The notes beneath the pieces were generated by a model, which saw only the letters and a list, made by a program, of their open reading frames with translations, searched no databases and had not been told where the DNA came from. The translations under genes were made by a program, and so were the position numbers. From Polynucleobacter sp. UK-Gri1-W3 (lineage in GTDB: Bacteria > Pseudomonadota > Gammaproteobacteria > Burkholderiales > Burkholderiaceae), in the NCBI RefSeq assembly GCF_018881595.1, contig NZ_JACVQA010000008.1:163735-227734 (forward strand): a stretch of DNA of 64,000 bases, in the 5' to 3' direction. Position 1 is the first letter of the stretch; each line of letters starts with the position of its first letter. This document shows positions 3,086 through 56,523 of the stretch, in pieces.

Positions 3086-3120
3086 ATTCAATTCCTTGTA
3101 AGATTTATAGAGTTTACTAT

Positions 3121-26746: not shown

Positions 26747-26823
26747 GCGGCTGTAGCTCAGCTGGATAGAGTACTTGGCTACGAACCAAGGGGTCGTGGG
26801 TTCAATTCCTGCCAGCCGCACCA
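26747..26823 (+). tRNA. tRNA-Arg (anticodon ACG); integration site
   Basis: A 77-base cloverleaf: acceptor GCGGCTG pairs with CAGCCGC, the D-arm contains AGCTCAGCTGGATAG, the anticodon loop CTACGAA carries ACG, and the T-arm contains GGTTCAATTCC. CCA is encoded at 26821-26823. The ACG anticodon (A34 becoming inosine) reads CGU, CGC and CGA. The 3' half is the attachment site of the integrative element and remains identical after integration, so the tRNA stays functional. Confidence 0.97.
26775..26823. repeat. attL: 49-bp attachment repeat (left copy)
   Basis: The sequence from TTGGCTACGAACC to GCCGCACCA is identical at 56475-56523. It covers the tRNA-Arg anticodon arm, variable loop, T-arm, acceptor 3' strand and CCA, the usual crossover region for tyrosine integrases that target tRNAs. 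Confidence 0.95.
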
Positions 26824-26852: not shown

Positions 26853-26855
26853 ACC

Positions 26856-26889
26856 TTTTGTGCAATAGAACTGCTTTTGTGCAATAGAA
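26856..26889. repeat. Direct repeats at left end (candidate integrase arm sites)
   Basis: TTTTGTGCAATAGAA occurs at 26856-26870 and again at 26875-26889, a 19-base period, between attL and the integrase stop codon. Short direct repeats flanking the core are typical arm-type binding sites of tyrosine integrases. A near-identical pair with the same spacing is at 56561-56594. Confidence 0.55.
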
Positions 26890-26897
26890 ATAGCCCT

Positions 26898-27998
26898 CTA
26901 AGAGGCCTTTTTCATACCTAAAGATGCGATTTTTTCGGGCTTGCGACGGTAGATTTTGTCAGTAGTTCTACCATCGGCGTGACTTAGTAGGGCTCTAGCG
27001 TGCTCTAAAGTCTCAGCGTCAGAGGCGCATTTAGCTCGTAAATCATGCTCCGTAAAGCCAAGATCAACCTTCGTTTCTTTGAGCACTCTTGCACAAAAGC
27101 GCTGCCACATAGAATCCCAGCCATTTGCCTTACCAGTCTCCTCATTGAAGTACCCATGACCATCTTTCTTGCAAAAAAGGAACGTAGAGAGCGCAGGACG
27201 GGCTGCCTTGGCCTTTTCAACACAATCCCTAAGCTCAGGGTCCCATAAGTAGATCGTGCGCTTACCAGTCGATTTAGCAGTTTTATGGCGTTGGATGTGA
27301 ATTCCGTCCTCTTTTAAATTGGACATAGTGAGTCGCAATAAGTCCGACCTAGCCATTCCGGTGATAATTTTGAGTCGAATATAGGCTTGAATTGCGCGAA
27401 CACTGCCTTTAATACGTTGAGCTTTCATTGAAAGCATCTCTAAAATTTCCCAATCCTCAATATATCTATCGCGTGATTTCTCCCCTTTTAGACGAACTTC
27501 GTTTTTAAACGGGTGGCGATGAATGTAGCCCCACTCCACGGCCTTAGTAAAGCAGTGAGAAAGCACCTCCATTTCACGATGCGCCGTAGTTTTGCCGCCG
27601 GACATATTTCCATTTTCATTCAGCTTTTTTGTGGTTCTCATATCAACATATTTGTAAATATGCTGAGGTTGGATTGCGCTCAGCTTTAGAGTGCCGAAAA
27701 CGGATCTAATTTGTTTGATCCAGATTAAATTGGATTCGCGACTTGAAATGGCTTTAGTTGGGACAACTTCAATTAAATAGCGGTCAAGTAGTTCTGAAAT
27801 ATTTTGTGCGTTATTTTGCGCTCCTATGCGCTCAGCCCACTTTGCGTATGCTTGCGGCAATGTTTTGCCTAAGCGGAATTGTTTTTTTCCTTCCCATAGA
27901 TGTTCTAAGCCTACGGGGACTGAAAAATAATATGCTCCGTGATATGAGCGCCAGCGTTCAGGTAGTCCCTTGTTTTCTGATTTTCTTGGCTTAGGCAT
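26898..27998 (-). CDS. int: Tyrosine-type site-specific integrase
   Basis: A 366-residue tyrosine recombinase of the phage type. An N-terminal arm-binding domain is followed by a core-binding domain (about 65-170). The catalytic domain has R217 in TGMARSDLLRL, a Lys near 240, H318 and R321 in EHDLR, H340 in LLSHADGRTTDK, and nucleophile Y350. All active residues are intact. It should catalyse insertion into and excision from the tRNA-Arg site 75 bases downstream. Its ATG abuts the TAA of the small gene upstream, so translation is coupled. Confidence 0.94.
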   Translation of the reverse strand: MPKPRKSENKGLPERWRSYHGAYYFSVPVGLEHLWEGKKQFRLGKTLPQAYAKWAERIGAQNNAQNISELLDRYLIEVVPTKAISSRESNLIWIKQIRSVFGTLKLSAIQPQHIYKYVDMRTTKKLNENGNMSGGKTTAHREMEVLSHCFTKAVEWGYIHRHPFKNEVRLKGEKSRDRYIEDWEILEMLSMKAQRIKGSVRAIQAYIRLKIITGMARSDLLRLTMSNLKEDGIHIQRHKTAKSTGKRTIYLWDPELRDCVEKAKAARPALSTFLFCKKDGHGYFNEETGKANGWDSMWQRFCARVLKETKVDLGFTEHDLRAKCASDAETLEHARALLSHADGRTTDKIYRRKPEKIASLGMKKAS

Positions 27999-30740: not shown

Positions 30741-31664
30741 TTACATTTCAAGATCGCCTAAATATTTGTGTGGATCCGCAAATGATGAATCTAAAAATTG
30801 AGAACTTTTTGGATCAAACCACAGCGCTATCTTGCCTTCCCATTCGCCGTTTCTTTGTTTCCTACATAACAGTGCTGCGTCAGGTATCGAGTTGTCGGGA
30901 AGACGATTGTTTGCCGTTTCATTCTCCTTATCTTTGTTTCTCCAGACCATGAAAATATTGTCTACTTGATCTGCAATTGACCCAGTCCCTTTAATATCGC
31001 TTTTATCGGGCTCAGATGACTCCTTTTCGCCTTTACGCAGATGGTGTACTAGGTGCATATGAACGCCAGTGTCATGTGAAAGTGCGCATATTTTTGTCAC
31101 AAAGTCTTTTTGCTGGTCGTAATCTGTTTCTTTTGGTATGCAGCGCATAAGATTATCGATAACGATATGCTTTACACCTTTCTCTTTAATTGCATAACGA
31201 CAGATTGCAATAATTGTGCTGGGGTCAATCATTCCATGATGATCGAGTACATAAACTTGATCTCTCTTCCAATCCCAAAATTTCTTTTGATTTACTGTAG
31301 TAAGTGTGTCGCCGCCAATCGCTTGCATCATCATGCGCAAAAGAGTTCTTTTTGGAGCCATTTCGAAACTACAAATCAATATCTTTTCACCTTGCTCTGC
31401 AAGAGTTAGCATTACCTGACCCACCAGCAGACTCTTACCGTGACCATTCACCCCAGCCCAGCAGGACGTCTCACCTTCGCGAAGGCCAATGTATTCGCCA
31501 GCCAAATCCCAGGGTGTATGTTTACCCTTGCGGATACCAGGATTCGCAATGAATTCGGCTACATCTTCTTCATAATCTGACTTTTCAAAAACTGCTCTTG
31601 ACGGTTCAGTCTCTGCATAGTATTTTTGAAAATCAATATTGTCTGTTCTTAAGATGCTTGCCAT
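30741..31664 (-). CDS. DnaB/RecA-type replicative helicase-like ATPase
   Basis: A 307-residue P-loop ATPase starting at the ATG at 31664, with GGAG 8 bases upstream. Walker A is GVNGHGKSLL, Walker B KHIVIDNLMRC, followed by HLVHHLRKGE and the DnaB/Twinkle-like block DIKGTGSIADQVDNIFMVWR, then CRKQRNGEWEGKIALWF. This is the helicase domain alone, as in phage replicative helicases lacking the DnaG-interacting N-terminal domain. It should unwind DNA during replication of the excised element. It overlaps the upstream small gene by 16 bases. Confidence 0.8.
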   Translation of the reverse strand: MASILRTDNIDFQKYYAETEPSRAVFEKSDYEEDVAEFIANPGIRKGKHTPWDLAGEYIGLREGETSCWAGVNGHGKSLLVGQVMLTLAEQGEKILICSFEMAPKRTLLRMMMQAIGGDTLTTVNQKKFWDWKRDQVYVLDHHGMIDPSTIIAICRYAIKEKGVKHIVIDNLMRCIPKETDYDQQKDFVTKICALSHDTGVHMHLVHHLRKGEKESSEPDKSDIKGTGSIADQVDNIFMVWRNKDKENETANNRLPDNSIPDAALLCRKQRNGEWEGKIALWFDPKSSQFLDSSFADPHKYLGDLEM

Positions 31665-31975
31665 GTATTTAATTCTCCGGTTGTGTCTATTCCAATGAGT
31701 TGTTGCGGATCTACTGCAATAAAAGCGAGCCACCACTTGGTGTAATGCTCGATAGTTGTATCTAATCCAGGTATTAGGTGAATAGTTATGTTGGTGGCCC
31801 ACCTAAGGTCTGCACGTGATGGTGAAGAACCTTCGGTCCATATATCTATAGAGTTGCTGCCGCACTCAATTTGATTCTCATGGTCGCCTGGTGGAGCATG
31901 CTTAATGCGAACAAATGCTTCGGCCGGAGTAAGGCCTCCCATGCGACACTTAATTATCTGGAGATGGCCGATCAT
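31649..31975 (-). CDS. Hypothetical protein in replication operon
   Basis: A 108-residue protein of no family I know. It contains EAFVRIKHAPPGDHE and IDIWTEGSSPSRADLRWA and no signal peptide. It overlaps the gene before it by 4 bases (ATGA-type) and the helicase gene by 16 bases, so it is translated as part of the tightly packed replication operon. A replication accessory role is inferred from position only. Confidence 0.55.
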   Translation of the reverse strand: MIGHLQIIKCRMGGLTPAEAFVRIKHAPPGDHENQIECGSNSIDIWTEGSSPSRADLRWATNITIHLIPGLDTTIEHYTKWWLAFIAVDPQQLIGIDTTGELNTWQAS

Positions 31976-32658
31976 ATATTTGCGTAGCCTGAAGCCATTG
32001 ATCCACTTGAGGCCGCCTTGCTACGTGATGCATCTTGCTTAATAACCCAGTTTCTCCATGTCGCAAACCAATCTGCCTTTAGACCTTTTGATCCCGCAGT
32101 ACCAGCCCAGTAATTTTTGAATACTTCAAAAACATCGTGAGGGTGTAGATCTGGCCTTTTTGACTTGCAATATGCTATCCATTCTTCGCCAATTTCTTCC
32201 TCGACACTAAATCGTGTACCTTTGGATTGCGTTGAAGCAGGCGTTTTGAATTCTTTAGAGGAGGTAGCGACGCCTTCTTTTTCATCATATTGCTGGCTTG
32301 CTTGATTTGATTTTTCTATTGGTAGATCACTTATTCCAGCTGGCGGCGCTGGAAACTTGCTTTTTGGGTAGCGGAGCCTTTGCTGAAACCTTGGAATAAA
32401 AATAAATCGCACTCCGGCAGAGTCATAGAGTCGGACTAGGTCTTGATCGGCAAGTTCTGAGAGTAAAACTTCCATCCTATTGGCTTCCATCGACCTGCCA
32501 GAAAAACAGCGAGCCCGCAAACTCCAGTTATTCCCGGTATATCTTGCTGTGTCATCAGCGCAGAGCAAAAGGTGAACGAACAATATCTTTGCTTCGTCAC
32601 AAACGTTCCAATACGCCTCTGAAGTCAGGAGTTCCTCTCTAATTACTCGTTGTGGCAT
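31972..32658 (-). CDS. Phage-type replication organiser / helicase-loader-like protein
   Basis: A 228-residue protein. The N-terminal 110 residues look like a winged-helix domain (VIREELLTSEAYWNVCDEAKILFVHLLLCADD) typical of phage replication initiators. A variable Ser/Thr/Gln linker follows. The C-terminal block FEVFKNYWAGTAGSKGLKADWFATWRNWV matches the conserved end of DnaT-like or phage replication proteins. It is first in the leftward replication operon and directly downstream of a good promoter at 32730-32757. It would recognise the origin and recruit the helicase encoded two genes on. Confidence 0.65.
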   Translation of the reverse strand: MPQRVIREELLTSEAYWNVCDEAKILFVHLLLCADDTARYTGNNWSLRARCFSGRSMEANRMEVLLSELADQDLVRLYDSAGVRFIFIPRFQQRLRYPKSKFPAPPAGISDLPIEKSNQASQQYDEKEGVATSSKEFKTPASTQSKGTRFSVEEEIGEEWIAYCKSKRPDLHPHDVFEVFKNYWAGTAGSKGLKADWFATWRNWVIKQDASRSKAASSGSMASGYANI

Positions 32659-32757: not shown

Positions 32758-32856
32758 TCAAATTGTCAAATATATATTTTAGGGGAGATAGCTTAAAAGT
32801 CATATAAATAATGGATTTAAGACCAATTATCATTATTTTTTCATATTTATTTATAT

Positions 32857-32896: not shown

Positions 32897-32906
32897 CGTG
32901 TACACG
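32897..32906. promoter_or_regulatory. Palindrome CGTGTACACG (copy 1), candidate operator
   Basis: A perfect 10-bp palindrome immediately downstream of the predicted promoter. Copies 2 and 3 are at 33638-33647 and 33727-33736. The following bases (CATTTACCAAAGC) also recur, in similar form, after copy 2. Confidence 0.5.
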
Positions 32907-32944: not shown

Positions 32945-33421
32945 ATGGAAGAATCAAAAAAAACGCGACACCCGAACGCTCCTTTACTAATTCTTGCGGC
33001 ACGCAATCGGAATCCAAATGCAACCGCGGCGGCTATAGCTAGGGAAATAGGGGGGGGAATAACGCGTGCTCGCGTGAGTCAGTTGCTAGCAGAAATGGGA
33101 TTAGAAACTAGAGTAACTTTTAAAAGATCCCCCGATTCGGCTCTAGATACAAATTTAATTGCTGAGATGGCAGTTGTCCATAATTTGGTATCGAGGGGTT
33201 TTGAGGTTTATAGATCTGTATCAAACAGTCACGCTAAGTTCGACGTAATTGCATCGACAAGGGCCGGCAAGCTTATTAAGATTGATGTGAGATCAGAGCG
33301 CTTTAACAAATATCAGTCTGGATTAGATGCAGCATTTGACTACATTGCCTTTGTCAGTGGTACTGGAAAAATTAGTTACGAGCCCGAATTAGATGTGCTT
33401 TTGCCTGATCTTGTTAAATAA
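32945..33421 (+). CDS. HTH protein fused to a PD-(D/E)XK nuclease-like domain
   Basis: A 158-residue protein. Residues 20-55 look like a helix-turn-helix (ATAAAIAREIGGGITRARVSQLLAEMG). Residues 73-120 look like a restriction-endonuclease-like core: an N-terminal helix with Glu, FDVIAS, then KLIKIDVRSE, matching the D-x(n)-(D/E)-x-K-type motif with ID-V in place of E-x-K, so catalysis is uncertain. It is alone on the rightward strand, driven by its own promoter and flanked by CGTGTACACG palindromes. A DNA-binding regulator or origin nuclease are both possible. Confidence 0.5.
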   Translation: MEESKKTRHPNAPLLILAARNRNPNATAAAIAREIGGGITRARVSQLLAEMGLETRVTFKRSPDSALDTNLIAEMAVVHNLVSRGFEVYRSVSNSHAKFDVIASTRAGKLIKIDVRSERFNKYQSGLDAAFDYIAFVSGTGKISYEPELDVLLPDLVK

Positions 33422-33453
33422 CCGATATGACGAGTAGACTTGGGCGGGCTTAT

Positions 33454-33497
33454 GGACTTAAGACGGGCTTAAGTCAGACTTAAGACTTACTCAAGAC
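33454..33497. repeat. Four 11-bp-phased iterons (consensus RGACTTAAGAC)
   Basis: Four consecutive 11-base units: GGACTTAAGAC, GGGCTTAAGTC, AGACTTAAGAC and TTACTCAAGAC. The core CTTAAG (CTCAAG in the last) recurs at 33457, 33468, 33479 and 33490, exactly one helical turn apart. Arrays like this bind replication initiators or partition proteins. It lies between the replication operon and the structured region. Confidence 0.7.
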
Positions 33498-33501
33498 TGC
33501 T

Positions 33502-33541
33502 GAAGAGAAGAGAAGAGAAGAGAAGAGAAGAGAAGAGAAGA
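33502..33541. repeat. Pentanucleotide tandem repeat (GAAGA)8
   Basis: Eight perfect copies of GAAGA directly follow the iterons, giving a 40-base purine-only strand. Such tracts can be unwound easily or form triplexes, and their copy number can change by slippage. Confidence 0.9.
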
Positions 33542-33637
33542 GAGCATTTACCTCTTCGAGGTACCCAACTATTTAGATTGATAATTAGTCTTTATGAAGA
33601 CAATGTTTTTAAATAAACCCAATCCCTAACATCGTTG

Positions 33638-33742
33638 CGTGTACACGTATAAACCTTTACCCAAAGCAGAGAAGCTACGCTTCACTCCGCCAGACTTGTG
33701 CTCCAGGTCCTAACTACGCGTAATACCGTGTACACGGATTAC
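33638..33742. promoter_or_regulatory. CGTGTACACG copies 2 and 3, the third inside a larger palindrome
   Basis: Copy 2 is at 33638-33647 and copy 3 at 33727-33736. Copy 3 is extended to CCGTGTACACGG and further to GTAAT and ATTAC arms (33720-33742), interrupted by one unpaired A. The symmetry suggests a dimeric DNA-binding protein; the HTH protein encoded at 32945 is one candidate. Confidence 0.5.
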
Positions 33743-33808
33743 CAGCAGGTAATAGCAATCCGTAAGTAACCAAAGGGGAGGGTTCAATCCCCTTTTCTGC
33801 TTTGGTAA
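33657..33808 (+). other. 152-nt foldable segment with tRNA-like T-arm (RNA or DNA structure)
   Basis: TTACCCAAAGCAGA (33657-33670) pairs with TCTGCTTTGGTAA (33796-33808), with one bulged C. Directly stacked on it, AAAGGGGA and TCCCCTTT close a loop GGGTTCAA (33772-33795); read as a tRNA arm it is GAGGG-TTCAATC-CCCTT. Inside are GAAGC-TAC-GCTTC (33671-33683), the 33720-33742 palindrome and ATTACC-AGCA-GGTAAT. There is no CCA and no anticodon arm, so it is not a tRNA. It may be a noncoding RNA, a long leader of the gene at 33868, or a DNA structure at an origin. Confidence 0.4.
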
Positions 33809-33867
33809 GTCAGTAGCAACTAGGTTCACTTAGCACATTCAATGTAACCACCAAAGGAACATTGAAT

Positions 33868-34725
33868 ATGAATCTCAAATTAATCCCGCTTTGTATAGCT
33901 GCAATCTTTACTCTGAGCGCTTGCGACAAACTCGGCTCATTTGGCTTTAGCTTAGATAAAACTGAGTCCACTTCAAGTGATCAGTCAAAGTCGATTACAA
34001 AAGACCGTTCGATCGGAGTCAGCGACTCAAACCAATTTTCAGTAAAAATGCCAGCGGCAGCTCTGATTGCAGAGTCAATGCGTGATTTTCTAGCTCAGCA
34101 GGGCATCAAGCCACCATTTAGAAAAGCATTCATTGGCTCAGGCTCAGCAACGCTCTCTGGAAAAGTGTCGACATCAACCCTGAATCCGGCTTACGTAGCT
34201 GCTGCGCTCGCAATTTCAGCAAGCTATGAGCCAGCTCTCGCCTGGCCTTCATTTATCAATGACCACGACTTCATGATTCGCGGTGCTGCAATGAGTGATT
34301 TTGCAAACTCCATCTCTACAGAAATCGTATCAAAAATCAGCTCCCAGGCGCTTCAAAACCCTGACGATGCAAAAGCCAAAATCATACTAGAGCTAGGCAA
34401 AATCCCATCCGCCACTCTCGAAGCAATTTATTCAAAAGCTTTAGCCGGCGCGAAAGCATCTCAACTCACACAAAATCTAGCTGGCAGTTCATCCCCTATC
34501 GAATACAAAATTGGCGACAGCGCAGTGAGCGCAGGCTCAAACGGATTTCAAGTCGCGAAGAACGGTCTTACGTGGTTCGGAGGCGGCGCTCTCTCTGGTA
34601 AGTCATATGACATCTCAATGTCATCTTCTCTCTCGACTGCACTTAATCAAAGACTCGACTTGAATACAAAAGAATCCTCGGGCTCAAGCGAGACAGCAAA
34701 GATTTCAGCGGACATTAAGCATTAA
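33868..34725 (+). CDS. Predicted lipoprotein of unknown function
   Basis: A 285-residue lipoprotein starting at the ATG at 33868 (AAAGGA upstream; a TTG at 33862 is too close to it). The signal peptide ends in LSAC with the cysteine near residue 19. A Ser/Lys-rich linker follows, then an Ala/Ser-rich region with possible helices (SMRDFLAQQGIKPPFRKAF, SNSISTEIVSKISSQAL-like). The C-terminus is Ser-rich and repetitive. I recognise no family. It opens a seven-gene block of small exported or membrane proteins. Confidence 0.6.
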   Translation: MNLKLIPLCIAAIFTLSACDKLGSFGFSLDKTESTSSDQSKSITKDRSIGVSDSNQFSVKMPAAALIAESMRDFLAQQGIKPPFRKAFIGSGSATLSGKVSTSTLNPAYVAAALAISASYEPALAWPSFINDHDFMIRGAAMSDFANSISTEIVSKISSQALQNPDDAKAKIILELGKIPSATLEAIYSKALAGAKASQLTQNLAGSSSPIEYKIGDSAVSAGSNGFQVAKNGLTWFGGGALSGKSYDISMSSSLSTALNQRLDLNTKESSGSSETAKISADIKH

Positions 34726-39050: not shown

Positions 39051-39419
39051 ATGTTCACAAACCTTAATCACGATCCACTAGAAGACTCATTTACCTCATG
39101 CCTTGAGGATTTAGTTAATGGCATTTATCAAGAACAGCGCCTTACTTTGCGTGAACCAAGTCGCAATCACGACATTATCTTCAGGTTCTTTTATACGAAC
39201 ACTATTGACGATTTCAGCGTTGTTGACGTCATCAAGTCGAGCGTAGGTAACGATATTTTGTTCGCCGATTTTATTAAGTTACCGACAGGCGAATGGAGAA
39301 ACTCAAGCGGAGACGTAAAGCCGTGCTTTATTGATTTCTTCCCAAGTCTCGAGAATTACATCCTTGTGGCGGATGAAGTGGGTGATGTTATTGAAATCAC
39401 GGGAGGTGATCATGCTTGA
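39051..39419 (+). CDS. Hypothetical protein in mobilisation operon
   Basis: A 122-residue acidic protein with no signal peptide or membrane helix and no family I know. It begins 2 bases after the RHH gene stop and overlaps the coupling-protein start by 8 bases, so it is part of the mobilisation operon. R388 has no gene at this place, so it may be an extra relaxosome or regulatory part specific to this element type. Confidence 0.55.
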   Translation: MFTNLNHDPLEDSFTSCLEDLVNGIYQEQRLTLREPSRNHDIIFRFFYTNTIDDFSVVDVIKSSVGNDILFADFIKLPTGEWRNSSGDVKPCFIDFFPSLENYILVADEVGDVIEITGGDHA

Positions 39420-41466
39420 TATTAAAAATGCAAATATGATTGCTGGTACAGCGTTGGAAACGCTTAGAACAAAGGGTAAGTTTATTGCCCGTGGCTGGAT
39501 GTATGCTGGCGCTGCGGGATTAGCCCCAACAGTTCTCATCTTACTAATTTGGCTAATTCTTATATCTCCAATGACCTTTTCGGTGGTGTCGAATAGCTAT
39601 GTCAGCTCTGATACGCCGATTACTTGGCGGGTAAAGGATGTTGCCGGAAAAGCTCATCGAATTCAAATTCAGGATGCTTCCGGTGTTACTAAAGACAAGT
39701 TAACCAGCGAAGAATATTCGGATGCTATTAGTGGTTTTGTGTCGGAAAACTACTGGATTAATCCGGTCTGGACAATCAATGTCCTGCTATTCATTGCTAT
39801 GGGGCTGTTCTGGCCAATAACAAAAAGAGCGCACAAACTCTTCTTTGAACTCGGTCAAAAGACGATAACGAATAAACGATTAAAAGGTGCTTTGGACGTT
39901 GTAACCTCTAAAGAACTCGATGCATTAGTACGAGAAGATGGCGGTGGCGACTGGACAATTTGCGATGTAGCGTTCCCTGATAACGCCTTTAAATACGGCA
40001 CAGGAATTTCGGGTCAACAGCGCTCAGGTAAATCTTTGGTCATGCACGATTTAATTAAACAAGCATCCAACAAGAAGGTTCGCCTGTTTATTCATGACCC
40101 ACAAGCAGAATTTTATGAGGCTAATTTCCGTCCCGGTATCGATTGTTTCTTTAATCCAGCAATGATCGGCAGCATTCCTTGGTCAATATTTTTAGAGTTG
40201 TTAACCGAAAACGATGCTCGTGAACTTGCTCAAGCCGCTATCCCTGTAACGGCAAATGCTGGTGCAAATGCCTTCTTTGATGATGCAGCCAGATCACTAT
40301 TAAGCGCATTAATTATTTCATTAGCCAAACGTGGCGTTACTGACTCAAGTGAGTTGGCAAGAGCATTCTTTTCCGCTACGCATGAGGAAATGGTTGAGTT
40401 TGTCAAAGGAACCAATGCTGCATTCTTAGTCTCAGATAACGCAAAAGGAATGACAGATTCAATCAAAGCGAGCGCTGGCATCTATTTAAATGGAATTTTA
40501 AGCATCCAGCCTGGCGCTTGGACTTTGCGCGATTTCTTAGCCCAACCCGAAGGTAACCTTTACATTCTCGGCGACGATTCAGAGTTATCACCAGTCAAGC
40601 GGATGCTTGTAATGGCTTTAACTGCAACCATTGCCAAGGCTGCAATTAAGACTCACGAGCCTAAGTTTTTGTTTCTTTTGGACGAATATCAGCTTCTGGG
40701 AGATTGCAAGGTAGACAAAATGTTATCAGCCCTTGCTAAGTTTGGCGTTGCAGTAGTTGTCGGGATGCAATCAGAAACTCAGCTTGTAAATGTCATGGGT
40801 GAGAGCCGCGCCGCTGCTACATTAGGACTGTTTGGTAACTACCTCCAGCTCAAAATCAACGGAAAGGATGCTCAAGATAAAGCATCAGGTCGCTTTGGAA
40901 TGCAGCTACAAGAGGTTGTATCTACATCCCAACAGTTATCGGTAACGGAGGCTCGCGACTCAATCGGCATCAGTAAAGCGCAACAAGATAAGCCAATTAT
41001 CATGGGAACCGAGTTCGGAATGTTGCCACCGCTAACAGGCTACTTAAAGCTCTCCGGCGATACAAGAACTTACCCTGCGGCTAAGGTTGACTACATGTCT
41101 TGGCTAAAAAAAGATGCAGATGGCCATTCATTTGCAGATGAGCTTCAGTTGCAAGTTGCAGATCTACCGGCGACTGACTCTAGATTCGACATTGTTCGTC
41201 AAGTTGGCGACGACTATAAGCGCAATCTGGCAATTAACATTCTAGGTCAACAGATTGTTAAGTTGGAATTGCGCCAGGGTAATCTAAGTCAAGCTAAAGC
41301 GATAGAGGCGATCAAAGCTCAAATTTTCCGCAAGAAAGAGGCGATGCAAGAGTTGATTGATGGTGGCGAAATTAAAGATGAGGTCGAGTTGGATGAAGAT
41401 ATTAATCAAGTAGAGCCAGAAAAGGAGATTGTTAAGCTCTCCACGCCGGAGTGGGGCGTTATCTAA
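39412..41466 (+). CDS. Type IV coupling protein (TrwB/TraD-like)
   Basis: A 684-residue protein starting at the ATG at 39412, with GGGAGGTG as an excellent ribosome site. Two transmembrane helices near the N-terminus (about 30-50 and 115-135) flank a periplasmic loop. Walker A is SGQQRSGKSLVMHDL, Walker B FLFLLDEYQLLG, and further TrwB/VirD4-type blocks include FFDDAARSLLSALI and VVVGMQSETQL. It forms the hexameric pump that links the relaxosome to a type IV secretion channel. The C-terminus is acidic. No channel genes are present in the element. Confidence 0.88.
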   Translation: MLDIKNANMIAGTALETLRTKGKFIARGWMYAGAAGLAPTVLILLIWLILISPMTFSVVSNSYVSSDTPITWRVKDVAGKAHRIQIQDASGVTKDKLTSEEYSDAISGFVSENYWINPVWTINVLLFIAMGLFWPITKRAHKLFFELGQKTITNKRLKGALDVVTSKELDALVREDGGGDWTICDVAFPDNAFKYGTGISGQQRSGKSLVMHDLIKQASNKKVRLFIHDPQAEFYEANFRPGIDCFFNPAMIGSIPWSIFLELLTENDARELAQAAIPVTANAGANAFFDDAARSLLSALIISLAKRGVTDSSELARAFFSATHEEMVEFVKGTNAAFLVSDNAKGMTDSIKASAGIYLNGILSIQPGAWTLRDFLAQPEGNLYILGDDSELSPVKRMLVMALTATIAKAAIKTHEPKFLFLLDEYQLLGDCKVDKMLSALAKFGVAVVVGMQSETQLVNVMGESRAAATLGLFGNYLQLKINGKDAQDKASGRFGMQLQEVVSTSQQLSVTEARDSIGISKAQQDKPIIMGTEFGMLPPLTGYLKLSGDTRTYPAAKVDYMSWLKKDADGHSFADELQLQVADLPATDSRFDIVRQVGDDYKRNLAINILGQQIVKLELRQGNLSQAKAIEAIKAQIFRKKEAMQELIDGGEIKDEVELDEDINQVEPEKEIVKLSTPEWGVI

Positions 41467-41560: not shown

Positions 41561-44500
41561 ATGATTCGATGCACTCCGATTACCTCCGGCGAAGGAGCCG
41601 CTAAATACTTCTTTGATTACGCGAACGAAGCTTCAAATGGTGAATGGGGCGGCAGAGCTGCTGAAATTATGGGGCTGGAAGGCACATCTGCCACTCGCGA
41701 AGATTTTATAAATACTCTTGAAGGAAAATTGACAAATCAGCAGACGGGGCAATTTCAAGACTTAGGAATTAACTCAAAAGAACGTCGGTCTGGATACGAT
41801 ATGACGTTTTCTGCACCGAAAAGCGCGAGCATTGCAGCGCTAGTTTACGGTGACACGAGGATTGCGGACGCTTATCGTGAGTCTGTTAAAACTGCGCTAG
41901 CTCAGATGGAAGATTTGGGGGCTCAATATCGGCAGAGAGAAGGCGGCCAGCCGGTGACCTACGCGTCTAATTCACTAGCTTATGTAACGTTTGAACACGA
42001 AACATCGCGTGATGGCGACCCGCAATTGCATATTCACGCAGTTATTGCGTCAATCACTGTCGATTCACAGGGCAAATTTCACTCCCTAACGAATGATGAG
42101 TTGATTCAGCACAAAGCCTACCTAAAGATCGGTGAAATGCAGCAGCATGATTTCGCCCGCCGGTGCTCGGATTTGGGGTACACAGTAGTTAAAGATGCGA
42201 AAGGTAACTTTGAGCTCGCCGAAATCAGCGCCAGGACGATTGCCTCTATGTCAAAAAGGTCAGAGGGAATTAAAGAGCATCTTAAGTCAATGGGCATTAA
42301 TCCAGATAAGGCAAGTTTTGAACAAAAACGCGCAGCATCTCTCAATACGCGCCAAGATAAAGTTGAGACAAGTCGCGAAGAGAATGTCGCTAGGTGGAAA
42401 GCTGAGACTGGAGATATTGCTTTTGCTAAAGAAGGGGGTGGAATTCAAAGGGTTATGACCGTCGAGACCGACAAGACATTTATTTCACAAGAAAAAATGG
42501 ATAAAGCCGTTGGACAAGCAATTTCTCATTTATCAGCAACTGAAAGCAGTTTTAGGGAGATTGACTTAATTAAGGAGGTGGGTAGATTTAGTGGGCATAC
42601 AGCAACTAACGCTCAAATAACTGCCGCTATTGCAGACATGAAGACGGACGGAAATATCGTACAACACGAGGGAGCTAACAGATTTATAACTACTCGTGAA
42701 CTCCAGCAAGAAGAGTTAAAGATGCTTGAAACCGCGACATCGACCATTGATAAATTCACACCAATCGTCAAAGGCCATGATAGAGCAGAGGAACTTCTTA
42801 AAAAAGCGGATGAGGCTCAGCTTGAAAAATCAACGTATGCATTATCTGGCGAGCAGAAAGCGGAGATTCTAGGTATTTTGAATTCTAAAGACGGTGTTAC
42901 TTTGGTTCAAGGCTCAGCAGGAACGGGAAAAACGTCAGCACTCAAAGTTATTAACGAGATAGCTCAATCTCAGGGCTATAAAGTTATAGGTACGGCGGTC
43001 TCATCTAAGGCAACCAACGAAATCATATCCGCAGGCATTGAGTCCAAAAATGCCGCAAAGTTTTTAGCCGACCTAAATTCGATTCCTCGTGAATTGCAAC
43101 GAAAGATAGAGATTGCAGAAGCAAGGCAAGCTAACTTATCGATCGGGAAAGTAAGCGTTGATGCCAACATTCGAACTTTAGGTATCGGACTATTTGCAGA
43201 TAAATATGTAGTTAACCTCAACGATATGACCGTTTACCGCTCAAATAGTACTGGTGGATTGAGTACTCCTTTAAAGACTGCGCTTTATTTTGTTGAGGCA
43301 GCAGCCAATAAAGTAGGCTATCAAAGTCTTAAAACAATGTCCAAGGCTGACACCTTGACCGGAAAAGCTAGCAATTTAATCATGTCTGCTACGGTCAGAG
43401 TTGCCGAGGCGATTATTAAGCCAGGTCCGGATAGCTTTAGACCTGTCTTGATGGGAGGGGTAGAGCATGCTGCCGCAACCGCATTAGCTATCTCAAAAAT
43501 TGCAATTGAAAAGATTGCGGCCCAAGTCGAGATTAGTACTCTAAGGACTCAACTTGATAACTTTAATAAAACAGGGAATGTGGACGGAAAGCGTCAGCTG
43601 ATGGTTCTTGACGAAGCGTCTATGATCGGCACGAAAGAAGTGGCTAAGATCATCGATTACTGCAAAAAAACAGAAACTAAGCTAATTATTCAGGGCGATT
43701 CAAAGCAACTTGGCTCCGTCAGCGGCGGAAGAGCATTCGACCAGTTAAAGCAAACCCAGCTTGCAACGCATAACTTAGTAGAAGCAGTTCGGTTTAAGAC
43801 TGAGCAGACTAAATCTATTAATGACTCTTTAAATAAGGGACAATACGACCAAGCAATTGAGAAGTGCAGTATTAAAGAGGTCGGCTTGAAAAAAGACGAT
43901 GCTAATTACTCAAAAGATGCTAACAACGCACTTTTATATGCAGAAACAGCTAAAGAGTATCTGAAAGAGATCGACACCAAGATCAAGGGCAGTGCAAACG
44001 CTTCGGTCGGGGTTGTTGTTACATCAAATGCAGATCGAATTGGTTGCAATGAGGCGGTGCGAGTTGAGCTTAAGGCTGCTGGAAAAATTGGCGAAAAGGA
44101 TTTTAAATTCGGGCATCGGGAGTCGACAAAGATGACTGATGCAGAGAAAAAGAATGTATCGATTTTGAAAGATAAGGGTGTAACGCACTTACAGGCCAAT
44201 CAAAATATTTCTCTCAAAACGCCCGGCGGCATAAGTATAAAAAAAGGTGAAGAGTTAAGGATTGTTAGCTGGAATACAGATAAGAATGAGTTGACTGTAA
44301 TTAGTGACAAGGGCGTGAGGGCGACAATTAATCCAGCTGAGATCAAGGGATTGGACCCGATGGACAGCAAACAAACCCGCGACTTCTCTAAAAGTGATCT
44401 TGTCGACGTTAGAGCAATCATTGGTAGTGAATACCAAATGAAAGATGGAAAGCCAGTTTTGAATGAGCAAACTGGGGATAAAGTGAAGAGCCCTGATTAT

Positions 44501-44929
44501 CTGTCGAACGGAGCAAATGGCAAGATTGAGTCAATTTCAGTACGTGGAGCAGAAATCAAATTCGATGATGGAAGGGTGATTAAAGTTTCTGCGGAAAATA
44601 TGGCAAAGGTTGATCATGCTTACGCTAGAACGGCTCACGGAAATCAAGGTAGAACTGTTGATAAAGCGATTGTTGCTATTAGCGAGGGTAGCGCTGGACT
44701 AGTTAATAAAGAGTCGGCATATGTAGCGCTAACGAGGGCTAAAGAGTCGGTAACAGTTGTCACTACTGCTAAAGATGCAGTAATAAGAAATGCAATCGAG
44801 ATGAGCGATAAAACTACCGCTCTTGATGCACCCCGTGTCAAAGAGCAGAGCTTTAAGCGTGAAACAACTAAAGACAGAGAAAAGGCCCCAGAGCAAAAAG
44901 AAGCCAAGAAACCAGACTTCACAAGATAG
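41561..44929 (+). CDS. MOBF relaxase-helicase (TrwC/TraI-like)
   Basis: A 1122-residue bifunctional protein. The N-terminal relaxase has Tyr residues at 16 and 20 for strand cleavage, GYDMTFSAPKSASI, and the metal site FEH...DPQLHIHAVI with three histidines. The C-terminal SF1 helicase has Walker A GSAGTGKTSA, Walker B LMVLDEASMIG, AYARTAHGNQGRTVDKAIV and motif VI AYVALTRAKE. It nicks oriT, stays bound to the 5' end and unwinds the strand for transfer. The tail is Lys/Glu-rich. The length is close to TraI/TrwC proteins with complete motifs. Confidence 0.93.
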   Translation: MIRCTPITSGEGAAKYFFDYANEASNGEWGGRAAEIMGLEGTSATREDFINTLEGKLTNQQTGQFQDLGINSKERRSGYDMTFSAPKSASIAALVYGDTRIADAYRESVKTALAQMEDLGAQYRQREGGQPVTYASNSLAYVTFEHETSRDGDPQLHIHAVIASITVDSQGKFHSLTNDELIQHKAYLKIGEMQQHDFARRCSDLGYTVVKDAKGNFELAEISARTIASMSKRSEGIKEHLKSMGINPDKASFEQKRAASLNTRQDKVETSREENVARWKAETGDIAFAKEGGGIQRVMTVETDKTFISQEKMDKAVGQAISHLSATESSFREIDLIKEVGRFSGHTATNAQITAAIADMKTDGNIVQHEGANRFITTRELQQEELKMLETATSTIDKFTPIVKGHDRAEELLKKADEAQLEKSTYALSGEQKAEILGILNSKDGVTLVQGSAGTGKTSALKVINEIAQSQGYKVIGTAVSSKATNEIISAGIESKNAAKFLADLNSIPRELQRKIEIAEARQANLSIGKVSVDANIRTLGIGLFADKYVVNLNDMTVYRSNSTGGLSTPLKTALYFVEAAANKVGYQSLKTMSKADTLTGKASNLIMSATVRVAEAIIKPGPDSFRPVLMGGVEHAAATALAISKIAIEKIAAQVEISTLRTQLDNFNKTGNVDGKRQLMVLDEASMIGTKEVAKIIDYCKKTETKLIIQGDSKQLGSVSGGRAFDQLKQTQLATHNLVEAVRFKTEQTKSINDSLNKGQYDQAIEKCSIKEVGLKKDDANYSKDANNALLYAETAKEYLKEIDTKIKGSANASVGVVVTSNADRIGCNEAVRVELKAAGKIGEKDFKFGHRESTKMTDAEKKNVSILKDKGVTHLQANQNISLKTPGGISIKKGEELRIVSWNTDKNELTVISDKGVRATINPAEIKGLDPMDSKQTRDFSKSDLVDVRAIIGSEYQMKDGKPVLNEQTGDKVKSPDYLSNGANGKIESISVRGAEIKFDDGRVIKVSAENMAKVDHAYARTAHGNQGRTVDKAIVAISEGSAGLVNKESAYVALTRAKESVTVVTTAKDAVIRNAIEMSDKTTALDAPRVKEQSFKRETTKDREKAPEQKEAKKPDFTR

Positions 44930-48876: not shown

Positions 48877-51744
48877 CTAAACGCTTCCACCCATGCCTTC
48901 AATATAGGTAGTCACAAAGTGCCTTACCTTTTCAGCTATACGATCTAAGATTGATTTGCTTTCAATCACACCAGGTGAGTACTCTAGGGCCTGCTTGATC
49001 TGTTGGTTACGCGGAAACTTATTGGCAAAGAGATAGTCATTAATCAGCTTTTCCATCTGCTCTGGGTTGATTTTCTCGTCAGCACACATGTCCTTAAATG
49101 CCTGAGCTCTATGGTTAGACCAAAAACTCTCGAATTCACCGATAACATTGTCGTTGGGGTTGAGTTTGGGTAGATTTTCCTCAATGAATCTCTCAATGAG
49201 CTCTCGCTTGCTGCGTAACTGCACCTCACCAGCAACGAGATCAATGATCTCTTTATGACGCTGCTTAGCCTCATCAGGCGGAAGTTTTTTAAGGCTTACG
49301 AGCAGATTTAGGATGTAGGCTACATTGATCTCATCCCTATGTATCAGACTGAGCTCGAAATCAATATCCTCGAGTACTGACACTCGATTCTCTTCGGTAG
49401 CTTTTTTAACTTTATCGTGAATATCAAGGTATTTACTCTTATAGTCCTCGAACGTCTGAGCTGTAATACCCAAGTCCTCGTCCTTAAAGTCTGAGAACGT
49501 TGTGAGGATATTCTTGATCCTCAGCAGTTCACGGAATCTAGTTACAAAGATGAGCTCTTCTTTTTCATCTCGCAACGAATCAACGCTACCCACGGTTGGA
49601 GCAATATCTAATAATTGTTCGGTCGCCTTATTAAACTGAGTTACATAATCCTCGTAGGGCTCAAGTAGCACAGTCTCTTTGGCATTCTTATTAGAGAAGA
49701 GGGCGATTGCCTCGTCAGTTGCCTCTTTGAGATTACGGAAGCAAACAATATTCCCCTGAGACTTCTTCTCATTGAGAATTCGGTTCGTGCGCGAGAGTGC
49801 CTGAATTAGTCCGTGGAACTTTAGATTCTTATCAACATAAAGTGTGTTGAGTCTTGGACTATCAAAGCCAGTCAAGAACATGTTTACCACCAGAAGAATG
49901 TCAATTTCGCCTTGTCTCACACGCTTAGCGATATCTTGATAGTAGTTGTAGAAGGACTGACTATCGTTCGTCGAGTACTTTGTCCCAAACATCACGTTGT
50001 AATCCTGAATAAAGCTATCAAGGTGATCGCGACTGTATTGATTAACTTTTGCACCTTCGGTAGGAGGATTTTCTTCTGGAATGATTCCGCTAATTAGGCC
50101 GTTATCTAGACCATTGGCGGTAGGGTCGGCTTCGTTAGCGGCATAACTGAAGATCGTCGCAATCCGCAGCGGCTTTGCTAATCCCTCTTGCTTCTGTTTA
50201 AATAGTTGATAGTACTGAATGAGGTTCTCTACACTGCTAACGCAAAACATCGCTGTAAATTCAGGTGACTTAGTCTTTTGCCTGTGATGCTCAAGTATGT
50301 AGTCGGTAATTTTGCTTAGGCGCTTAGGACTGTCAAGCAGGCCTTTTGTATCAATTGCCTCGACATCAATATCAAGTTCGCTGGCAGACTCTTTCCGCTG
50401 GTACTTGCCTACGTACTCAACTGCAAAACGTAAAACATTCTCATCTTTAATTGCATCAACAATGACGTATTTATGTAGGCATTCACCAAACAGACTTTTG
50501 GTAGTCTGCTTATTGCCTTCGCTACCAGTAGCATTCTCTGCAAGGATTGGCGTGCCAGTAAATCCAAACATTTGAGCGTTCTTAAAGAAGGTCTTAATGT
50601 TCTGGTGCGTATCGCCAAACTGGCTTCGGTGGCACTCATCAAAGATAAATACGATCTTTTTATCCTGTAAATGACCAATCTTTGAAAGATATTTGCCATT
50701 CATGATTGCGTTGTTTAGCTTTTGGATCGTAGTTAATACAAGCTTTGGAGTTTCTTCACTTAATTGCTTGACTAGGGTGCTGGTATCTCCAGTAATGTCG
50801 ATACTCCCCTTAGCGAATGAGTTGAATTCTCGAGCCGTTTGATAGTCTAAGTCCTTGCGGTCAACTACAAAGATGACCTTATGAACCTTTGGCATGTTGA
50901 CAATAATTTGACTAGCTTTAAATGAAGTGAGCGTTTTGCCGGAACCGGTAGTGTGCCAAATATAAGCATTGGCATTACTGGCTTTAACTTGATTAATCAA
51001 AGCTTCGGCAGCGTAAAACTGATATGGGCGCAGTACTTTAATAATCTGATCTTGAGTGAGCACCATGTACTGGGTGATCATCTTTGCGATATGACAAGGC
51101 TTTAAGAACTCGGCGCTGAACTCATTTAAATCGGATAGGCGATTATTAAGTTTGTCTGTCCAAAAGAATGTTTGCTCGAAAGGGGCCTTCTTATTGTTGG
51201 AGTAGTACTTAGTATTGACGCCGTTACTAATGATAAATAGTTGTACATACTGAAATAGACCATAGCCTGCATCGTAGGAGGTATGGTGGTAGCGCTGAAT
51301 CTGATTGAACGCTTCTTTTAATTCAATCCCACGCCGTTTTAGCTCAATTTGGATTAGCGGCAACCCATTAATCAAGATGGTGACGTCATAGCGGGTCTTG
51401 CGACGACCTTCTATGGAAATCTGATTGGTAACCTGGAACTCGTTCAAGCACCAATCTTCGCTATTAATAAAACTAATGCGGATCTCTTCGCCGTTCTCGC
51501 GCTTAATAGGAAAAGGCTTATCTCTGAGAATGCCAGCTCTAGTAAATACGTCGCCTGTATTAAGGCGATTTAATACCTTATCGAACTCTTCGTTTGAGAG
51601 GGTAACTTTGTTATGAATCTCTAGTTGGCGCTTGAGATTAGCAAGCATGCAACCTTCATCGTCAATCGTTACGCGGGAATATTCCATCCCCTCCAACTGC
51701 TTAATTAGGGATTCTTCGAGAGCGTATTCAGATTGAGTAGACAT
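48877..51744 (-). CDS. hsdR: Type I restriction endonuclease subunit R (HsdR)
   Basis: A 955-residue restriction subunit. The N-terminal PD-(D/E)XK nuclease shows YDVTILINGLPLIQIELKRRG. The SF2 translocase has Walker A WHTTGSGKTLTS, DEAD-type FIFDECHRSQFG, GFTGTPI, VVNMFLTGFDSPRLNTLY and QALSRTNRIL. The C-terminal helical domain (about 700-955) binds HsdM. It translocates DNA using ATP and cuts unmethylated foreign DNA at a distance. It is complete and last of the hsdM-hsdS-hsdR operon. Confidence 0.95.
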   Translation of the reverse strand: MSTQSEYALEESLIKQLEGMEYSRVTIDDEGCMLANLKRQLEIHNKVTLSNEEFDKVLNRLNTGDVFTRAGILRDKPFPIKRENGEEIRISFINSEDWCLNEFQVTNQISIEGRRKTRYDVTILINGLPLIQIELKRRGIELKEAFNQIQRYHHTSYDAGYGLFQYVQLFIISNGVNTKYYSNNKKAPFEQTFFWTDKLNNRLSDLNEFSAEFLKPCHIAKMITQYMVLTQDQIIKVLRPYQFYAAEALINQVKASNANAYIWHTTGSGKTLTSFKASQIIVNMPKVHKVIFVVDRKDLDYQTAREFNSFAKGSIDITGDTSTLVKQLSEETPKLVLTTIQKLNNAIMNGKYLSKIGHLQDKKIVFIFDECHRSQFGDTHQNIKTFFKNAQMFGFTGTPILAENATGSEGNKQTTKSLFGECLHKYVIVDAIKDENVLRFAVEYVGKYQRKESASELDIDVEAIDTKGLLDSPKRLSKITDYILEHHRQKTKSPEFTAMFCVSSVENLIQYYQLFKQKQEGLAKPLRIATIFSYAANEADPTANGLDNGLISGIIPEENPPTEGAKVNQYSRDHLDSFIQDYNVMFGTKYSTNDSQSFYNYYQDIAKRVRQGEIDILLVVNMFLTGFDSPRLNTLYVDKNLKFHGLIQALSRTNRILNEKKSQGNIVCFRNLKEATDEAIALFSNKNAKETVLLEPYEDYVTQFNKATEQLLDIAPTVGSVDSLRDEKEELIFVTRFRELLRIKNILTTFSDFKDEDLGITAQTFEDYKSKYLDIHDKVKKATEENRVSVLEDIDFELSLIHRDEINVAYILNLLVSLKKLPPDEAKQRHKEIIDLVAGEVQLRSKRELIERFIEENLPKLNPNDNVIGEFESFWSNHRAQAFKDMCADEKINPEQMEKLINDYLFANKFPRNQQIKQALEYSPGVIESKSILDRIAEKVRHFVTTYIEGMGGSV

Positions 51745-51752
51745 TGTGTGGT

Positions 51753-52997
51753 TTAAACGAACATTTGCTGTAGAAGACCTTGCTTGTACTCTTTGGCAGC
51801 CTCTAGCTGGGCTTTAACGTTCATGATCTTGTCATCAATGGCGGCGAGGAAATTGGCAATTTTGATTTGCTCGTCAAGGCAAGGAAGACTAATTTCCATC
51901 GATTTAATAATTTGCAAATTTAAGCCCCCTCTGCCTCCATCACCAGCTGATAGCGATCTAAGCTCATCATACCTAGCCTCTAAATTTTGATAAAGGTAGC
52001 GCGTATTAAATATTGTTGGATTTGGCAGAATTGCAGCAATTGATTGATTTGTACATAACTCAACTAAATTCATCGCTACAGTTCCGCGTGTTTTACCTTG
52101 GCCAGCTAAACCAATTAAGACACAATTTTTTGGAATTAATTTAGTACTCGAATTTTCTAATCCAGCTTGAGTTATGCGATTTTCAACTTCGAAAACCACC
52201 TTGAGATTAAGTTCGCCAGAATTCATCCATCGAATACTTCCGCCCCAATATTCCTTTTTTAGTGTGCTGGGCGTACCGCCAGCAGTAATTTTGCTTGATA
52301 TTTCACCAATTGTTGTAAGTTCCCACTCCGGAAACTCCCGCCTGTCATCATCCTTAAAGCGCAACTCCTGATTGAAAATCTTCTGCATCACTCCTTTTTT
52401 ATAGGAGGAGAGTAATTCATATTTCTTGGTAAGCTGGGAGATCTTGGCGTCAACGGTTGTGAGGAAGTTGGCGATTTTGGTTTGTTCAGGTAGCTCGGGA
52501 GTGCAAATTGGTATTGCTGATAGAGATTCCTGGCCGATGTTGTATCTTGTTGCGCCACCACTTCTTTGAGTTATCTGATCCCTAACCGAACTTGTCTTTA
52601 AAAGATGGTGTGAAAAGATCGGATCTATTTCAACTTCAGCACGTCCTCTGATAACAAAGCCACCAAAGGTAACTGGGCGTACACCCAAATAAACATTTGA
52701 TTGGCCGACATCTTCTCTTGTCTCAGAGCTCCTTTGAAAAAGAATGTCCCCATATTTAATTTCATTCTTGGAAAATTCAACATCTGAAATATTTACAGAG
52801 CCAATAATACTTTCGTAGCTAATATAGTCATTATTAATAATATCTAATACATTAATAAACTTATATCCGCTTCCATATTGCGACTTCTCGGCATTAACAC
52901 CGTTTTTAAAAGAATAAATGGCACCCAGCAACCGATGGTTCCAATCGTTTTGAAATTCTTTAAATCTTAGCTTTGGCGCCACTACTTTCGTAGTCAT
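51753..52997 (-). CDS. hsdS: Type I restriction-modification specificity subunit S (HsdS)
   Basis: A 414-residue specificity subunit from the ATG at 52997, one base after the hsdM stop. Two target-recognition domains are visible (about 10-190 and 220-400). Each ends in a conserved helix start: LPEQTKIANFLTTVDAKISQL and LDEQIKIANFLAAIDDKIM. The two helices are the spacer region that sets the gap between half-sites. The sequence recognised cannot be read from the protein. Both halves look complete. Confidence 0.93.
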   Translation of the reverse strand: MTTKVVAPKLRFKEFQNDWNHRLLGAIYSFKNGVNAEKSQYGSGYKFINVLDIINNDYISYESIIGSVNISDVEFSKNEIKYGDILFQRSSETREDVGQSNVYLGVRPVTFGGFVIRGRAEVEIDPIFSHHLLKTSSVRDQITQRSGGATRYNIGQESLSAIPICTPELPEQTKIANFLTTVDAKISQLTKKYELLSSYKKGVMQKIFNQELRFKDDDRREFPEWELTTIGEISSKITAGGTPSTLKKEYWGGSIRWMNSGELNLKVVFEVENRITQAGLENSSTKLIPKNCVLIGLAGQGKTRGTVAMNLVELCTNQSIAAILPNPTIFNTRYLYQNLEARYDELRSLSAGDGGRGGLNLQIIKSMEISLPCLDEQIKIANFLAAIDDKIMNVKAQLEAAKEYKQGLLQQMFV

Positions 52998-52998
52998 C

Positions 52999-56474: not shown

Positions 56475-56523
56475 TTGGCTACGAACCAAGGGGTCGTGGG
56501 TTCAATTCCTGCCAGCCGCACCA
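56475..56523. repeat. attR: 49-bp attachment repeat (right copy)
   Basis: Identical to 26775-26823. It is only the 3' half of tRNA-Arg, without the 5' half, so it is the right junction and not a second gene. Confidence 0.95.

Follow-up and report, generated by a model that had tools for sequence, protein, structure and literature searches.

A phased iteron array and GAAGA tract in an integrated Polynucleobacter element: a likely replication origin outside its initiator gene

The question raised by this locus is what a short, regularly phased repeat array does in noncoding DNA a few hundred base pairs from a replication gene. The array lies in a 64,000-nucleotide stretch of the genome of Polynucleobacter sp. 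UK-Gri1-W3, called the window here, and an earlier note had read it as a candidate replication origin, or a partition centromere, of a new type. The four iterons in 11-bp phase and the GAAGA tract that follows them are real, and were placed correctly to within a few bases, as judged by TRF and by lag-11 identity. The units start at 33455 (GACTTAAGACG), 33466 (GGCTTAAGTCA), 33477 (GACTTAAGACT) and 33488 (TACTCAAGACT), the fourth being degenerate. TRF gave a score of 44 for the 11-bp repeat (33455-33497) and 84 for the 5-bp repeat (33502-33543, 100% matches). The tract had been taken as (GAAGA)8, 40 bases long and directly abutting the iterons; it is slightly longer, with 8.4 copies in 42 bases, and three bases, GCT, separate it from the last unit.

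We found no match to the array elsewhere in the window. Lag-11 identity across the 44 bases of 33455-33498 was 25/33, a value reached at none of the 63,812 positions outside 33400-33545 (highest value 19); among four-unit stretches with periods from 8 to 14, none outside that interval had an equal identity fraction. The period-5 run at 33502-33543 is perfect over its 42 bases, and the runner-up in the window is 13 bases long. Units 1 to 3 are near-palindromes around CTTAAG, each with 8/10 self-complementary positions, compared with 4/10 in unit 4. The hexamer CTTAAG occurs 19 times in the window against 20 expected; the unusual feature of the array is its phasing, not the abundance of CTTAAG. 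Each of units 1 to 3 places a TAA in a different frame, closing all three forward frames. The tract has no T on the + strand and carries all its T residues on the - strand, as (CTCTT)n; its A+T content is 60%, compared with 58% in the surroundings. No listed open reading frame of at least 60 aa and no promoter-like match covers the tract, and Rfam matches at the array were all far below gathering scores. A lone ATGGATTTAAGAC at 32811-32823, upstream of the rep gene, is identical at 12/13 positions to ATGGACTTAAGAC at 33452, and is possibly an extra Rep site or a chance occurrence.

The array is located in an integrated element of about 29.7 kb, as indicated by a duplicated 49-bp end of a tRNA-Arg (Table 1). 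The leftward operon of this element encodes Rep, a 108-aa protein and a DnaB-like helicase. The earlier note had placed the array beside this operon; they are indeed neighbors, but not immediate ones, since an intervening gene on the + strand (32945-33421) separates them, and about 800 bp lie between the array and the start codon of rep (32658). There was no mating-pore protein recognized by Pfam among 30 open reading frames, so the element may be mobilizable rather than self-transmissible.

Table 1. Features of the integrated element and of its repeat array (window coordinates).
Feature	Position	Strand	Basis or remark
attL, 3' part of tRNA-Arg	26775..26823	+	49-bp identical copy at 56475-56523
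Tyrosine integrase of element	26898..27998	-	PF00589, PHROG 1
DnaB-like helicase, predicted Rep partner	30741..31802	-	PF03796 E 9.3e-17; PHROG 5482 E 1.3e-60, PHROG 239 E 1.3e-58
Small ORF, 108 aa, between rep and helicase	31649..31975	-	No family match
Rep, replication initiator, predicted N-terminal winged helix	31972..32658	-	PHROG 1408 (replication initiation protein) E 8.6e-20
158-aa protein, between rep and array	32945..33421	+	Weak MarR-type and PD-(D/E)XK Pfam matches, below curated cut-offs
Four 11-bp iterons, core GACTTAAG(A/T)C	33455..33498	+	Predicted Rep binding sites; like units in rep genes of L166, L164/L165
3-bp spacer GCT	33499..33501	+	L166: likewise few bases between fourth unit and tract
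(GAAGA)8.4 tract	33502..33543	+	Predicted unwinding / helicase-loading tract; short-unit A-rich, T-poor tracts recur 3' of relatives' iterons
TrwB-type coupling protein	39331..41466	+	PF10412 E 4.9e-52
TrwC-type relaxase-helicase	41561..44929	+	PF08751 E 5.1e-62
attR, 49-bp copy of tRNA-Arg 3' part	56475..56523	+	Identical to attL copy

The tRNA-Arg region has matches in Cupriavidus and Variovorax replicons (90-96%), in a Legionella plasmid (90%) and in a Photobacterium one (83%). A near search of plasmid records gave seven matches to the element, all of them at the tRNA end only. Among 5.8 billion proteins searched, the product of gene 32945 has two relatives apart from the entry of its own genome, one of them (P0061) 86% identical. 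It had no relative in viral contigs or in any of the 185 other genomes of the genus (1/186 counting the window's own), and its structure model (mean pLDDT 54) was left unused. Several other features of the element were observed. A type I restriction-modification operon with HsdR, HsdS and HsdM matches (48877-54600) is cargo of the element. The palindrome CGTGTACACG has three exact copies within 840 bp (32897-32906, 33638-33647 and 33727-33736) and no others in the window; the first is just upstream of gene 32945 and the other two precede the operon at 33862. These copies are possible operators of a regulator of the element. Between the array and that operon there is a structured noncoding region (33655-33810) with 14-nt arms at 33661-33674 and 33792-33805 (fold of 33600-33830, z -3.0). 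It contains a tRNA-like T-arm sequence, GGTTCAATCC; tRNA-like matches in 33600-33900 were given by ARAGORN at lowered thresholds only, and none by Rfam. Beside attL are two identical 16-bp direct repeats of CTTTTGTGCAATAGAA (26855-26870 and 26874-26889), with an inverted near-copy at 27086, which are possible integrase arm sites.

Rep was characterized by its sequence and by its predicted structure. No Pfam family matched it at E ≤ 1, and an iteron plasmid oriV with a Rep_3 or RepA_N initiator was rejected on that basis; among 20 aligned Rep relatives, one had a weak RepA_N match (E 3.3e-4). The AF2 model has a mean pLDDT of 65.8. Confidence is highest at residues 11-90 (pLDDT 81-92), where the predicted elements fit a winged helix; the C-terminal helical domain is less confidently modeled, and the linker between them (112-151) is of low confidence. 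That linker is where relatives carry an array. Matches of the model in BFVD are phage replisome organizers, with E-values from 2.3e-9, and the best viral match is so named. A fold search of the PDB with the model gave no match at E ≤ 0.001, the weaker ones including many winged-helix regulators, and the best E-value of the Rep sequence against PDB chains was 0.32. One homologue, P0002, is 73% identical; the longest contig listed for it, of 40,299 bases, is probably the same one as that listed for P0061. There were matches to Rep in 8 of 200 relatives' genomes including the window's own, none of the others covering more than about half of Rep, and two plasmid records matched it weakly at the protein level (27% and 30%). 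The relatives sampled were the best 80 of 335 viral contigs, 73 genome contigs and these 8 of 200 relatives' genomes. In a tandem-repeat listing, many of the Rep relatives among the matches listed have 10- to 12-bp iterons, followed immediately by a short-unit tract, inside the rep gene. In contrast, TRF found no array in the rep gene of the window.

We compared the window array with in-gene arrays at the DNA level. Viral contigs were scanned with a two-iteron pattern, GACTYAAGNCNGACTYAAGNC, alone; the pentamer was not part of the pattern. Five contigs matched (L163-L167). In three of these (L164, L165 and L166, two of them distinct, as L164 and L165 are the same at this place) the match falls inside the gene for a Rep homologue, and GA-rich pentamers follow it; L163 and L167 had no Rep match. 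A close counterpart is L166 (IMGVR_UViG_3300047548_000322), with a Rep that shares 52% identity with that of the window across residues 1-135. The four units of the L166 array are GACTTAAGTCA GACTCAAGACG TACCTAAGTCA GTCTCAAGTCA, followed by a short spacer and (AAGAG)4.6. The two arrays have in common four 11-bp iterons, a short spacer, a GA pentamer tract and the polarity of the whole; they differ in that the L166 array is in-gene, has CTCAAG and CCTAAG variants, and has 4.6 pentamers compared with 8.4. The local score of the window array against the L166 rep gene was 72, compared with 32 for the best of 300 shuffles. For the iterons alone it was 39, compared with 29 in shuffles, and because L164-L166 were found by an iteron pattern this similarity is partly ascertained. 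The Rep of L164/L165 is 34% identical to window Rep over residues 1-109, and its gene carries iterons of the GACTCAAGTCA type with a tract of GAAGT pentamers.

The in-gene copies of L164-L166 have CTCAAG or CCTAAG where CTTAAG would give an in-frame TAA. An in-gene copy cannot hold CTTAAG in all three frames without a TAA. In the window copy, CTTAAG recurs in three consecutive units and closes every forward frame; this copy is therefore kept as DNA and not as protein. The in-gene arrays are translated and should therefore be detectable in protein relatives as linker peptides. A KRREEKR-like stretch, which the tract would encode, follows the N-terminal domain in 38/38 relatives (P0003-P0040), and a DLSQTQD-like stretch, corresponding to the iterons, in 30/38 of them; both motifs are loose and were composed after the linkers had been inspected. 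Window Rep has neither peptide, and P0002 has the tract-like one only. The arrays of L164/L165 and L166 are thus seen as DNA, and those of the other homologues are deduced from protein linkers. The earlier note's reading of the array as an origin is well supported by these homologues, which hold a like array in their own genes, with the same kind of unit, the 11-bp phase, the GA pentamer tract and the same order. That note had also named relatives with the same replication genes and no iterons as evidence against an origin; the more distant relatives on which this was checked have iterons in-gene.

Since a homologous array lies in-gene in a related viral contig, we consider it quite likely that the window array is the replication origin of the element, probably recognized by its own Rep (31972-32658) and probably moved out of rep to a noncoding site about 800 bp away on the opposite strand. 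Directly visible in the DNA are the array with the order of its parts, the match between it and the array within a homologous rep gene, and the lack of an array in the window rep gene. Most simply, the exit of the origin from the gene would date to the ancestor shared by window Rep and P0002, or to the lineage of the window, and the origin would since have been kept as DNA only.

The array could also be a relic, a non-functional piece left over from an earlier rep copy or from a prophage. Stop codons close every forward frame of the array stretch, which is consistent with this, as is the extent of the similarity to Rep, which is confined to the linker. When the Rep of L166, P0003 and P0008 were compared with the whole window by tblastn, they matched the rep gene and the array (33455-33555), the latter via linker residues 116-146 only, a result that also counts in favor of an origin moved out of rep. 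The array matches run through stop codons, with best E-values of 0.048 (L166 Rep), 0.011 (P0003) and 0.001 (P0008); P0010 gave nothing at the array. All four queries also matched 49.2-49.7 kb at E 0.20-0.98, which we took as chance, so that array E-values of 0.01-0.05 are weak on their own. The alignments of L166 Rep to window Rep end by residue 162 of 234, leaving the C-terminal parts unaligned. However, tblastn detected no N- or C-terminal rep similarity flanking the array, the tract is perfect over its 42 bases, and the window rep gene has no array of its own. We regard a relic as improbable.

The match to a viral contig could have another meaning, in which the array mimics the origin of L166-like phages and titrates their initiator, protecting the host or the element, while the element replicates otherwise. 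Ectopic copies of the lambda origin arrest lambda replication, according to the part of PMC4488673 that deals with them, and the element also carries the restriction-modification system described above. Against such a decoy, the element encodes a Rep of that family whose gene has no internal array, so that the element would itself need such an origin, and a single integrated copy would be a weak decoy. This explanation has, in our view, about the same small chance as a relic.

Other functions of short repeats fit the locus less well still. Phased short repeats in noncoding DNA are also typical of centromeres, and the earlier note had offered a partition centromere (parS) of the element as an alternative to an origin. 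We did not retain it and consider it very improbable: there is no ParA/ParB-like protein among the 30 open reading frames by Pfam, and the arrays homologous to this one lie within genes for initiators. Slippage is common in pure pentamer runs, and the GAAGA tract might be a contingency tract that switches a gene, or the repeats might act in the RNA downstream of gene 32945, as a terminator or hairpin. Folding of the + strand RNA across 33425-33560 is somewhat better than that of shuffled sequences (z -2.26; 2/200 as good), and the end of the tract is overlapped by a terminator-like match on the - strand (33557-33537). In contrast, the + strand has no such match at the array, the tract is in no listed frame and under no promoter-like match, and neither a contingency tract nor an RNA element accounts for the match to the in-gene arrays of Rep homologues. 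We give these possibilities as little weight as a centromere.

No displaced array of this clade other than that of the window emerged from a limited search. Order-wide, 0/399 genomes matched a strict iteron pattern, but this pattern misses the window's own array, in which unit 2 begins GGCT, and the result is therefore uninformative. A looser pattern gave a second match in the genome of the window (contig C7, L169); it has no GA tract within 450 bases and was taken as chance.

We surveyed initiator genes of the family to determine how general the arrangement is. In this survey, 114 non-redundant initiator genes were compared with 1074 gene-sized background windows from the same loci, using TRF criteria. 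The genes came from 164 loci examined, of which 163 had a match; one was dropped as too short and the rest were clustered. Iterons followed by a tract were found in 29/114 initiator genes compared with 2/1074 background windows, and two of the 29 (L164 and L166) had come via the iteron pattern. The reverse order, tract then iterons, was found in 1/114 genes compared with 5/1074 windows. The window array shares the polarity of the family. Each part was also enriched separately, with an iteron array in 74/114 genes compared with 148/1074 windows and a short tract in 80/114 compared with 116/1074. By the same criteria the full pair was absent from 85/114 initiator genes, and an in-gene tract was absent at 44/163 loci. 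Palindromic iterons, a feature of units 1 to 3 in the window, were unsupported as a family-wide trait (35/62 units above their own shuffled mean, 0.48 compared with 0.44).

The in-gene tracts have a characteristic composition. Unit sizes among the 80 tracts are 5 bases (10), 6 (25), 7 (41) and 8 (4). Neither the units of 5 and 7 bases nor the 11-bp iterons make up a whole number of codons, suggesting a repeat of DNA rather than of peptide. The tracts average 47.6% A and 9.3% T, compared with 28.2% and 20.5% in the genes, and their mean A+T content (57.0%, compared with 48.6%) exceeds that of the gene in 59/80 cases. The 159 control short tracts outside rep genes average 21.0% A and 16.4% T. 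T exceeds A in 58 of these controls and in 4/80 rep-gene tracts, and T is at or below 15% in 93/159 and 60/80, respectively. The mark of rep-gene tracts is an asymmetry of A over T more than T-poverty alone.

Because the TRF criteria had been fixed after a first look at the same loci, we applied them unchanged to a hold-out of 32 new genes, obtained with a different query, and 216 windows. The query returned 80 loci, 73 of them new, and 41 of those were dropped as already seen, redundant or short. Iterons then tract occurred in 9/32 genes compared with 1/216 windows, and the reverse order in 0/32 and 0/216. An iteron array was found in 16/32 compared with 42/216, and a tract in 28/32 compared with 18/216. 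The query, P0047, has a different precomputed domain (PF07120), and the hold-out therefore tests the family rule and not the clade of the window.

Outside rep genes there were 14 further pairings of iterons and tract, in 11 loci. The pairing in the viral contig L002 falls inside a second initiator-like ORF. This contig has two different initiator-like ORFs on opposite strands (2725-3520 and 4057-4872); the second has an in-gene array of iterons and tract, and the first has an in-gene short tract and a weak iteron call. In L113 (6377-6930 and 6990-8408), from Thioalkalivibrio, many 22-bp iterons of the CTCAGGGGGACAAATACCCCCT type lie upstream of an initiator gene and adjoin a run of CCTTTG-like units. 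The C-terminal domain alone of that initiator resembles window Rep; its N-terminal part is presumably plasmid-like, resembling a plasmid Rep_3 protein, and given this we took L113 to have an ordinary plasmid-type layout and rejected it as a displaced array. At the other nine loci, the pairings are 0.9 to 7 kb from rep; they lie in at least one open frame of 100 codons at six loci and do not at three (L019, L025 and L141).

The locus has the traits of a replisome-organizer-type origin, namely regular iterons (4, 11 bp apart), an initiator of the family and a DnaB-family helicase encoded alongside. By analogy with lambda O and SPP1 gp38, as the relevant parts of PMC7466680 and PMC6316719 describe them, Rep, once bound to the iterons, would open the neighboring tract and pass it on to the DnaB-like helicase, and we presume Rep to be the cognate initiator of the array. 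We envisage that the element excises and that the N-terminal winged helix of Rep then binds the 11-bp sites, which at about one helical turn apart would place a row of Rep molecules on one face of the DNA. This complex would open the adjacent pentamer tract, and the (CTCTT)n strand, which holds all the T residues of the tract, may be the strand gripped as single-stranded DNA. The C-terminal domain of Rep would load the element's helicase (30741-31802) at the opened tract, and the host replisome would then copy the circle. The short-unit tract is in the usual place and polarity of the family beside the iterons, and its role in unwinding is predicted. At only 60% A+T, if it does open first, the composition of its strands or a bound protein, rather than a low melting point alone, would be responsible.

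A broader proposal, which we put forward tentatively and hold to be somewhat short of an even chance, is that the initiators of this family share a flexible origin grammar. It would consist of iterons and then, on the 3' side, an A-rich, T-poor ladder of 5- to 7-base units that acts, as the phage equivalent of a DnaA-trio, as a track for single-strand loading, and the whole would normally lie within the initiator coding sequence. The element would have cut this origin out, inverted it and freed it from coding, with the iterons drifting back to the CTTAAG palindrome.

Origins inside genes are hard to dissect, as a change in the DNA can also alter the initiator. Here the cis-acting part has apparently been separated from the gene by evolution, and can be tested on its own. 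The rule from the survey (iterons, then an A-rich, T-poor short-unit tract, in fixed polarity) could serve as an origin predictor for many uncharacterized phages. The element itself combines a relaxase with a phage-type replication module, which would give the excised circle its own replication. Replication of integrative and conjugative elements is known by other routes, such as relaxase and oriT for ICEBs1 in the text of PMC4489591 on that element.

Several known systems resemble the locus. The origin of lambda and Stx phages has initiator-binding iterons (four in lambda) and an unwinding tract in the middle of the O gene, as described in sections of PMC7466680, and this in-gene layout is common to many relatives of window Rep. 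The element differs from lambda in that its array lies beyond the initiator gene, on the opposite strand, with iterons 11 bp long and a tract made of tandem short units (60% A+T). An in-gene origin of the lambda type was rejected for the window, given the positions of array (33455-33543) and rep (31972-32658) and the lack of a TRF array in rep; the analyses run here did not show homology of Rep to lambda O. SPP1 has oriL inside gene 38 and an intergenic oriR, both bound by the replisome organizer gp38 (G38P), according to the passages of PMC6316719 on these origins. As that account has it, SPP1 is like the window element in having direct repeats with an unwinding region, a replisome organizer and its own DnaB-family helicase, both binding and unwinding being predictions for the element, and the SPP1 oriR indicates that such an origin can sit outside the gene. 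SPP1 keeps an in-gene origin too, whereas the only array found in the window is outside. SPP1 is also a lytic phage, whereas the window element is integrated and has a relaxase, and the likeness of Rep to gp38 is by description.

The tract has parallels in the DNA unwinding elements (DUE) of oriC and of iteron plasmids. Their repeats are often T-rich, lie as short repeats beside the double-strand sites of the initiator and are bound by it as single strands; plasmid Rep proteins bind one strand of the unwinding element, and thymidines matter there (PMC10797057, a review, in its text on these repeats). Like DnaA-trio and DUE repeats, the tracts of the window family are a short repeated motif beside the double-strand sites of an initiator; the unit is 5-7 bp instead of 3 or 13, the initiator family is different, and strand binding is predicted. 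In the open-licence PubMed Central literature, we found no report that phage initiator genes have short-unit tracts as a rule, or that a mobile element has transferred an in-gene origin to a place outside the gene. Lambda and SPP1 (oriL and oriR) already provide examples of iterons next to an unwinding region, both within and outside the initiator gene, and the "new type" of the earlier note was too strong for a layout that these origins share. The novelty lies in where the array sits in this element, outside the initiator gene, and in the recurrence of the short-unit tract across the family. The window array is best read as a displaced variant of replisome-organizer origins.
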